The notes beneath the pieces are model-generated. The model saw nothing but the letters and a program-made list of their open reading frames with translations. It was not told where the DNA came from and made no database searches. From Candidatus Competibacter sp. (GTDB taxonomy: Bacteria > Pseudomonadota > Gammaproteobacteria > Competibacterales > Competibacteraceae), in contig JARSSH010000038.1 of assembly GCA_029624815.1 (NCBI GenBank), positions 1-64,000 on the forward strand: a stretch of DNA of 64,000 nucleotides. Reading direction: 5' to 3'. Shown one piece after another: positions 14,782 through 17,721 of the stretch. The position numbers and the translations under genes were made by a program. Positions within the stretch are counted from its first letter, which is position 1; each line of letters opens with the position of its first letter.

Positions 14782-15891
14782 CTACTTGCCGCCGGAGCGC
14801 AACATGGCTTGCATGAAGTTGGCCAACGTGCCTTCCGGCAACCCGGACCAGATGTCGGACACCTGCTGGAAGGCGCGCATCGAATCATACAGTTTTTTGA
14901 AGTCGGGATTTTTCGCCGATTCCTCGGCGTAGATCTTCTGCGCCGTCGCGTAGGCCGCCTTCAGCACGTCGTCCGGATAGCGGCGCAATTGCGTGCCGCT
15001 CTGCACCAACCGCTGGATCGCCAGCGGGTTCTTGGTGTCGTAAGCCGCCAGCATGCCGACGTTGGCCTCGGCCGCCGCCGCCTCGAACGCCGCCTGATAG
15101 GGTTTGGGCAGCTTGTCCCACTGTTCCTTGTTGACGTAGAACGACAGCACCGGACCCGGTTCCCACCATCCGGGGTAATAATAAAACTTGGCGACCTTGT
15201 AGAAGCCGAGCTTTTCGTCGTCGTAAGGGCCGACCCATTCGGCGGCGTCGATGGCGCCCCGCTCCAGCGCCGGATAAATCTCGCCGCCCGGCAGCGACTG
15301 CGGCACCGCTCCCAGCGCCGAAAAGACTTCCGCGCCGAAGCCGGGAATCCGGATTTTCAGGCCCTTCAGATCCTCCAGCGAATTGATCTCCTTGCGGAAC
15401 CAACCGCCCATCTGCGTCCCGGTATCGCCGCCAAGAAAGTTGACGACGTTGTATTTGGCGAAAAATTCGCGCAACAAAGGGCCGCCCTCGCCATGATAAT
15501 TCCAGGCGAACATCTGCCGGGCGGTGAGGCCGAACGGCACCGAACAGTCGAGCGCGAACGCCTTGTTCTTGCCGTGGAAATAGTACGAAGCAGTGTGACA
15601 GAGTTCGACCGTGTTCTGCTGCACGGCGTCCAACACACCAAAGGGCGGCACGATCTCGCCGCCGGCAAACACCCGGATTTCGAACTTGCCTTCGGTGATT
15701 TCCGCCAGCCGCTTGGCCAGCACTTCACCCGCTCCATAGATCGTGTCCAGGCTCTTGGGAAAGCTCGATGCCATCCGCCACTTGATGGCGGGCAAACCCG
15801 CCGTCTGCGCCATCGCGGGGACGGCGGCCGTGCCGGCGGCGGCGGCGGCCAAACCCAGACCGGTCTTCTTGATAAAATCGCGACGCTCCAT
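14782..15891 (-). CDS. dctP: TRAP transporter periplasmic substrate-binding protein (DctP family)
   Basis: 369 aa from the ATG at 15891, seven bases after GGAGG. The N-terminus has a Tat-type signal (ERRDFIKK followed by an Ala-rich hydrophobic stretch, cleavage near AMAQ). The mature part has the FASSFPKSLDTIYG-like start and the GGDTGTQMGGWF and WVGPYDDEKLGFYK blocks typical of mannitol/C4-dicarboxylate/2-keto-acid binding TRAP proteins. It faces dctQM tail to tail, so it has its own promoter, unlike the usual dctPQM operon. Confidence 0.92.
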   Translation of the reverse strand: MERRDFIKKTGLGLAAAAAGTAAVPAMAQTAGLPAIKWRMASSFPKSLDTIYGAGEVLAKRLAEITEGKFEIRVFAGGEIVPPFGVLDAVQQNTVELCHTASYYFHGKNKAFALDCSVPFGLTARQMFAWNYHGEGGPLLREFFAKYNVVNFLGGDTGTQMGGWFRKEINSLEDLKGLKIRIPGFGAEVFSALGAVPQSLPGGEIYPALERGAIDAAEWVGPYDDEKLGFYKVAKFYYYPGWWEPGPVLSFYVNKEQWDKLPKPYQAAFEAAAAEANVGMLAAYDTKNPLAIQRLVQSGTQLRRYPDDVLKAAYATAQKIYAEESAKNPDFKKLYDSMRAFQQVSDIWSGLPEGTLANFMQAMLRSGGK

Positions 15892-16060: not shown

Positions 16061-16089
16061 TTGACAGCTTTCCGGGACATGCTTATAAT
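16061..16089 (+). promoter_or_regulatory. Consensus sigma70 promoter upstream of rtcB
   Basis: TTGACA at 16061-16066 and TATAAT at 16084-16089 match the consensus exactly, with the optimal 17-bp spacing. Transcription should begin near 16096, about 245 bp before rtcB. No convincing gene starts at that point, so the transcript begins with a long untranslated region or is a separate small RNA. Confidence 0.85.
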
Positions 16090-16095
16090 TTGATT

Positions 16096-16297
16096 GTGGT
16101 TTTTGGTAGCACCCTGCAAATTTTTTCACGGGACGCCCCATACCGTCCCAACGCGCGGAAGGCGAACGACATGCTCGCACAAGAACACACCCTCATGTGA
16201 CGCCTTCCGGGCGGTCTTCGGAAGGCCGTGCTTGTCTTCCGAGTCTGCTTCCCCCGCGACTTTGGAAAACCCTGGATGACCCCATTGTCCAGGGTTT
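16096..16297 (+). ncRNA. Candidate structured small RNA or rtcB leader
   Basis: About 200 nt following the consensus promoter. It contains a hairpin GGGACG/CGTCCC (16130-16149). A long hairpin follows, pairing CGGAAGGCG (16156-16164) with CGCCTTCCG (16201-16209), with an inner ACATG/CATGT stem. The same CCTTCCG arm can alternatively pair with CGGAAGGC at 16219-16226, so two structures are mutually exclusive. The region ends in a 10-bp hairpin at 16267-16297. I do not recognise it as 6S, SRP, tmRNA or a named riboswitch. No open frame within it has a convincing Shine-Dalgarno. Either an sRNA or a switching leader of rtcB is possible. Confidence 0.5.
16267..16297 (+). terminator. Terminator-like hairpin before rtcB
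   Basis: AAACCCTGGA and TCCAGGGTTT form a perfect 10-bp stem with an 11-nt loop, followed by CTTGCTTG. The T-tract is poor, so it may be a weak or regulated terminator, or simply the 3' end structure of the upstream RNA. It lies 43 bp before the rtcB start. Confidence 0.5.
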
Positions 16298-16339
16298 CTT
16301 GCTTGGGGATCAGACCCCGCATCGCAATGAGAACCCATC

Positions 16340-17565: not shown

Positions 17566-17721
17566 ATGGAACACAATCGCCAGCGGCGCCGCAACCCGGT
17601 CGCCGCCGCGCCGATCCTGCGCAAGGGCGGCGCGCACCTGAAGTCGAAAACGGCGGAACGCGCCAAAATCCGCTCTCAATTGAAACGGGATGCCAGCGAA
17701 TGGCGACAGTGGAGCGACTGA
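17566..17721 (+). CDS. Small basic protein downstream of rtcB
   Basis: 51 aa from the ATG at 17566, with GGAG about nine bases upstream. It is rich in Arg and Lys (RQRRRNPV near the start, ILRKGGAHLKSKTAERAK in the middle) and lacks hydrophobic helices, so it is probably nucleic-acid or ribosome binding. It follows rtcB closely in the same direction, so a role alongside the RNA ligase is possible. I do not recognise the family with certainty. Confidence 0.6.
   Translation: MEHNRQRRRNPVAAAPILRKGGAHLKSKTAERAKIRSQLKRDASEWRQWSD

Follow-up and report, generated by a model that had tools for sequence, protein, structure and literature searches.

In Escherichia coli, rtcB is under the control of RtcR and sigma-54. 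The attenuators of trp and his operons possess a short upstream open reading frame (uORF) and mutually exclusive helices that end in either a terminator or an antiterminator. Among the described systems, the closest analog of the locus studied here is probably PA5471.1-armZ of Pseudomonas aeruginosa. There, the RtcB-like gene armZ (PA5471) is located beside prfH, and its transcription is controlled by the leader peptide PA5471.1 and alternative stem-loops; ribosome stalling on PA5471.1 switches armZ on, and the codons for Gln3 and Phe4 are of importance in a tRNA-processing mutant (cca), according to the accessible portions of two reports (PMC12057347, PMC13041342). Leaders of the ermC type, as portrayed in the accessible portion of the source, sense a general slowdown of translation without amino-acid specificity and exert their control at the translational level (PMC2965389). 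A search by title in one open-licence library revealed no paper on attenuation of rtcB itself.

We analyzed a stretch of 64,000 nucleotides (referred to as the window) from Candidatus Competibacter sp., in which a leader is located between the divergent TRAP-transporter gene dctP and rtcB. This locus shares with PA5471.1-armZ a short leader peptide, alternative stem-loops and a gene of the RtcB family, the peptide being compared by its description in the accessible text. It differs in its partner genes, in its occurrence in other gammaproteobacterial groups and in its RtcB protein, which falls outside the PrfH-linked subfamily (139.2 bits against TIGR03073, with a cut-off of 271.8); furthermore, covariation of the rtcB leaders supports a longer relay of helices. 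The likeness to the trp and his attenuators resides in the uORF and the exclusive helices, but the rtcB uORFs lack a run of codons for one amino acid (Gln at codon 3 or 4 is no run) and the operon serves RNA repair instead of amino-acid synthesis. As in ermC-type leaders, no amino-acid specificity is apparent, whereas a predicted terminator is present ahead of rtcB and control of ermC is translational in the text at hand. With the E. coli system the locus has the target gene in common. However, RtcR (PF06956) found no match in the window genome, with a positive E. coli control, the promoter is of the sigma-70 type, and an RNA switch is predicted. Consistent with the original prediction of a mode of control other than RtcR and sigma-54, sigma-54-like sites scoring at least 9/10 were found in none of 34 leaders. 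Our in silico analysis indicates that the leader probably (about three chances in four) regulates the rtcB operon by ribosome-mediated attenuation of transcription, operating through a relay of mutually exclusive helices.

Elements of the rtcB leader

Table 1. Features of the leader and of the genes downstream of it (positions refer to the window).
Feature	Sequence	Position	Strand	Remarks
Sigma-70 promoter	TTGACA-17-TATAAT	16061-16089	+	TTGACA 16061-16066, 17-nt spacer, TATAAT 16084-16089
5′ hairpin	GGGACG/CGTCCC	16130-16149	+	Ahead of arm A; by eye also in the same-genus copies L002, L003 and L004
Arm A	CGGAAGGCG	16156-16164	+	Holds the Shine-Dalgarno sequence of the uORF; pairs with B
uORF, 9 codons	MLAQEHTLM*	16171-16200	+	ATG 16171, TGA 16198-16200
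Arm B	CGCCTTCCG	16201-16209	+	Pairs with A or C
Arm C	CTTCGGAAGGC	16216-16226	+	Pairs with B or D
Arm D/E	GTCTTCCGAG	16234-16243	+	Partner either C or, as antiterminator, the terminator 5′ arm
Variant competitor	GACTTTGGAA	16258-16267	+	Predicted partner of D in the window, L036 and L037; adjoins the terminator
Terminator hairpin	CCCTGGATGA-CCCCA-TTGTCCAGGG	16270-16294	+	Tail TTTCTTGCTT to 16304
rtcB, 399 aa		16340-17539	+	Sole PF01139 match in the genome, E 1.7e-128
Small basic ORF, 51 aa	RRNPVA..ILRKGG	17566-17721	+	Partner gene of rtcB

The original prediction envisaged a promoter-driven leader with alternative folds, and this picture was borne out (Table 1). The perfect promoter that it had claimed scores 12/12 against the sigma-70 consensus and is the sole site of at least 9/12 between positions 15500 and 18200, where shuffled sequences contain 0.6 on average. 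Sigma-70-like sites scoring at least 9 are also present ahead of the uORF in 32 of the 34 leaders, with a mean of 10.3 compared to 7.9 in shuffles. Judged from the promoter, transcription is predicted to start at about position 16096. The RNA from 16096 to 16305 folds with −79.5 kcal/mol (z −3.97), and none of 200 shuffles was equally stable.

The claimed switching arm, B, pairs exactly with either of its two proposed partners: positions 16201-16209 form a perfect 9-bp helix with A (16156-16164), and positions 16202-16209 form 8 bp with the part of C that reads CGGAAGGC (16219-16226). A further pairing, between C (16217-16224) and D (16236-16243), is possible and had been overlooked, as had the uORF; arm A provides the start signal of this uORF, and arm B begins on the base right after its TGA. 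The terminator-like hairpin that was expected to end the leader just ahead of rtcB is present as well. It has a stability of −13.3 kcal/mol and a tail, TTTCTTGC, that represents an interrupted U-tract; a simple terminator scan made no call at this hairpin. Copies outside the genus possess longer T tails, mostly TTTTTT.

Occurrence among relatives and neighboring genes

A DNA similarity search detected the region in 9 of 40 genomes, that of the window included, as ten copies, nine of which lie ahead of rtcB. The congener G004 carries one copy ahead of rtcB and a second ahead of a homolog of the 51-aa ORF; in G046 and G048, the leader is found directly ahead of such a homolog. From the ten copies we built a covariance model, R1. 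Within the order, 16 of 40 genomes had matches (15 accepted); the figures were 9 of 369 for the class (6 accepted, own genome included), 9 of 63 for the order of G341 (8 accepted) and 19 of 42 for the order of G071 (18 accepted). These genome sets overlap, and acceptance was judged by eye. The matches L026, L118, L120, L121, L132, L133 and L151, all without the leader architecture, were dropped. Records of rtcB relatives possessing the leader bear the labels Thioploca, Thiomargarita, Thiothrix, Thiofilum, Leucothrix, Parabeggiatoa and Contendobacter, and locus L037 stems from Candidatus Competibacter phosphatis. The leader also precedes partner genes of rtcB, namely the 51-aa ORF (L019, L020, L021) and the gene for a 300-aa protein (L122, L128); the leader L117 precedes a gene with a PcfJ match, and L125 is located at a contig end. 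Rfam contained no gathering-score match for the window leader or in 15 loci that we judged to bear the leader; matches of the leader to His_leader (24 bits versus a cut-off of 49), DicF and SNORD10 were rejected as chance.

Within the 450 bases ahead of rtcB, a strict scan demanded a uORF with a Shine-Dalgarno sequence, a stop located −4 to +3 nt from the B:C hairpin, a terminator, and pairing of D with the 5′ arm of the terminator (T5′), all with thresholds that were fixed after leaders had been seen. The full architecture was found at 23 of 79 rtcB loci (for the 80th, L061, the match does not include the start of rtcB) and on none of the 79 reverse strands; at the remaining 56 loci, it was absent or a threshold was missed, the hand-curated near misses being L038, L071, L072, L077 and L088. 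Terminators and hairpins are common in intergenic DNA, and a plain intergenic promoter and terminator might therefore show chance pairings; yet none of 790 dinucleotide shuffles and none of 71 next-upstream segments passed the scan, and the helices covary (see below), so that we consider the probability of this explanation to be negligible.

The leaders contain a short uORF with its own ribosome-binding site, as looked for in an attenuator. In 31 curated leaders, which were picked for having a uORF and partly by eye, its length is 8-14 codons with two exceptions (2 and 26). Measured from the base at which pairing of B begins, the uORF stop of these leaders lies at −4 to +2 bases, values below −4 being impossible by construction; shuffles predict a stop within 3 bases of the start of B in 3.2 of 31. 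Among 20 further R1 matches, all 20 have a uORF, counted after matches without the architecture had been dropped. The encoded peptides show no sequence conservation. Compared with shuffles, they are rich in Gln (38, with 17 expected), Phe (19, with 8 expected) and Asn (40, with 27 expected). Of 33 uORFs, 15 have Gln at codon 3 or 4, compared to 3.7 expected; since this excess is weaker when the Beggiatoa-like set is left out (7 of 18, with 2.2 expected and a shuffle maximum of 8), we regard Gln at these codons as a lead.

The original prediction had also considered an independent small RNA. Such an RNA, about 205 nt long and acting in trans, could equally well possess a strong promoter of its own, a terminator hairpin and a stable fold, and its adjacency to rtcB would then be incidental. 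The copies of relatives, however, precede rtcB or rtcB partner genes, the uORF with its Shine-Dalgarno sequence ends at a fixed place suited to control by a ribosome, and the covarying antiterminator pairing would have no obvious use in such an RNA. This makes a trans-acting RNA improbable.

With regard to the rtcB module, homologs of the 51-aa ORF (motif RRNPVA..ILRKGG..H.KS) are found near 41 of 80 rtcB loci, and the 300-aa protein is encoded near 33 of 80. Neither protein had an NCBIfam or PADLOC match, and the 300-aa protein had one Pfam match, which was below threshold. An ORF that we take to be RbfA-like ends directly ahead of rtcB in L051, L053, L056, L064, L065, L081 and L099, among others; ORFs in L054, L057, L059, L087 and L094 are presumably slipin-like. 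A different leader, with the uORF MFD...SLAFV.LR, precedes rtcB in L062 and L063 (Methylococcales records). In L135, L139, L147, L148 and L150, the rtcB match breaks off at residue 89 and continues only after about 350-900 nt, which looks like an insert, perhaps an intein. At PrfH-linked RtcB2 loci, a short leader uORF was seen by eye in two of five cases, L156 (MKNTLLPFADLFS) and L160 (MQQLHLQYLFGI); the end of the L156 uORF is complementary, again by eye, to a stretch just ahead of the gene.

In each of the six copies examined (L049, about 2740-2960; L067, about 2180-2420; L084, about 2700-2960; and L186, L187 and L188, near 1500 on the reverse strand), three successive frames together encode a small SEC-C protein of about 85 aa. 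Its ORF displays an apparent +1 shift at UUU/U or UUU/C roughly 13 codons from the start and a second one within the SEC-C motif. Three copies lie directly upstream of rtcB; the three others were matched with E < 1e-17, and of these, one is located roughly 0.5 kb from an RtcB2 gene. From its sequence, this gene looks like a case of double programmed +1 frameshifting, a subject on which a search by title in open-licence literature returned nothing relevant.

Covariation of four helices

Covariation was assessed by comparing the pairing energy of the arms of each leader with that of arms swapped between leaders in 20,000 permutations. The set comprised 34 leaders that are at most 80% identical, drawn from 49; L145, in which the terminator had been mis-called, was excluded. 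For each of the four helices of the model, A:B (z −6.2), B:C (z −9.0), C:D (z −7.8) and D/E:T5′ (z −7.3), the result of the own arms was reached in 0 of 20,000 permutations. The own partner was better than the median swapped partner in 22 (A:B), 31 (B:C), 27 (C:D) and 29 (D/E:T5′) of the 34 leaders. Loss of the pairings in relatives had been set beforehand as a possible refutation of the original prediction; these data demonstrate instead that the pairings are kept. The arms B and C change together, for instance GCCTTCC/GGAAGGC, GTCTCCC/GGGAGAC and TGTCCTCT/AGAGGACA, with 30 distinct pairs in the 34 leaders. The covariance-model alignment A3, in which antisense rows were mixed in, was excluded from the pair counts; antisense R1 matches lie on the terminator palindrome.

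Shared base composition could favor own partners, but it does not by itself account for the covariation, since pairings outside the model have z values near +1 (A:T5′, +1.2; B:T5′, +0.9). The control pairing A:D was significant too (z −5.9); this is expected from the resemblance of A to C and of D to B, and we do not count it as evidence. The D/E:T5′ helix was also recovered (z −5.7, 0 of 20,000) in the 20 further R1 matches, which we chose ourselves after the drops, some having been viewed previously and several sharing descent with the curated set; the 20 include two repeats (L127 of L076, L131 of L098), which the later set no longer contains, and L145 with its mis-called terminator. Taken singly, the pairing of D with T5′ reached p ≤ 0.05 in only 17 of the 31 curated leaders.

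The alternative helices and the terminator would be equally suitable for an attenuator that operates independently of translation and is controlled by a bound protein or ligand, e.g., through autoregulation by RtcB or through sensing of RNA with 2′,3′-cyclic-phosphate ends, and RtcB does handle RNA ends of this type. Inspection by eye, however, revealed no conserved unpaired motif: the arm sequences vary while their pairing is kept. Furthermore, the uORF is kept and no Rfam family is matched, and we therefore give little credence to binding-controlled attenuation. RNA-end sensing or cleavage by RtcB-related pathways, which had been suggested initially, found no supporting observation.

Folding of the nascent RNA and a proposed relay

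The attenuator that we favor would work through a relay in the order A:B, B:C, C:D, D/E:T5′ and T5′:T3′, in which each helix blocks the next. Transcription of the leader would be driven by the housekeeping promoter. Without a ribosome, A:B and C:D would form, the terminator could fold, and rtcB would be off. During normal translation, the leading edge of a ribosome at the uORF stop would cover B, C:D would form, and the terminator would again keep rtcB off. A ribosome that initiates and then stalls within the first codons, possibly as a consequence of ribosome damage, a cleaved or uncharged tRNA or a drug, would cover A and leave B free to pair with C. D/E would thus be released and could pair with the first half of the terminator hairpin (5′ arm plus loop), so that RNA polymerase would proceed into rtcB.

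We calculated partition-function folds for nascent RNA ending at the terminator loop, with ribosomes represented by assumed footprints, an approach that ignores kinetics and pseudoknots. The upstream pairing of the terminator, taken over its 5′ arm and loop, amounted to 0.94 for a ribosome in the first codons of the uORF, 0.62 for no ribosome, and 0.57 for a ribosome at the stop. These values agree with a relay that early stalling would switch to the on state. Upstream pairing was higher for the early ribosome than for the ribosome at the stop in 31 of 34 leaders, and higher than without a ribosome in 32 of 34; in 14 of 34 leaders it was at least 0.8 without a ribosome, and the contrast is small there. 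L125 and L116 disagree with the model in one or more of the folding comparisons. The elements themselves, their conservation, the covariation of the four helices and the location of the uORF are observations, whereas the direction of the switch, its signal and its operation in vivo are inferred.

The window copy is the clearest exception, with upstream pairing of 0.28 (early), 0.74 (none) and 0.95 (stop). L036 (0.71, 0.96 and 1.00) and L037 (0.53, 0.98 and 0.91) likewise run opposite to the model. In the window RNA from 16190 onward, the terminator forms together with B:C, and the D/E:T5′ pairing is weak (−8.1 kcal/mol, no better than shuffles, p 0.17). Since its predicted folding runs against the switch and D prefers positions 16258-16267, we hold the attenuator reading less firmly for the window copy than for the family, for which we hold it firmly.

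The clade of the window may have decayed or changed, such that A:B, B:C and C:D stay and pairing of D with 16258-16267 replaces that with the terminator, leaving control that is weak, inverted or only translational. Folding of L012, L036 and L037 yields precisely this pairing of D and a weak antiterminator. The remaining elements are nevertheless kept in these three leaders, both copies of the congener G004 follow the standard pattern (early, none and stop: 0.84, 0.69 and 0.54 for L019; 1.00, 0.49 and 0.53 for L027), and the limits of the folding approach noted above apply here as well; decay or change of the switch in this clade thus appears unlikely, with a somewhat better standing than the trans-acting RNA or binding-controlled attenuation.

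Ahead of rtcB in bacteria without RtcR, a switch of this kind would bear both on how the gene is controlled and on which damage RtcB normally answers. Ribosome-mediated attenuation predicts a stalled ribosome, not a free RNA end, as the signal for rtcB, and would place rtcB and armZ under one regulatory logic. It would also nominate the two unnamed partner genes, encoding the 51-aa basic ORF and the 300-aa protein, as parts of the repair response. More tentatively, and at somewhat less than even odds, the leader may represent a widespread gammaproteobacterial attenuator that uses the first codons of its uORF as a test of the ribosome, with Gln at codons 3-4 as a favored tripwire, and that switches on the ligase and its partners when tRNA (notably tRNA-Gln) or rRNA is cleaved. 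If this is true, RNA repair in these bacteria would be self-adjusting, with damage inducing the very proteins that mend it.
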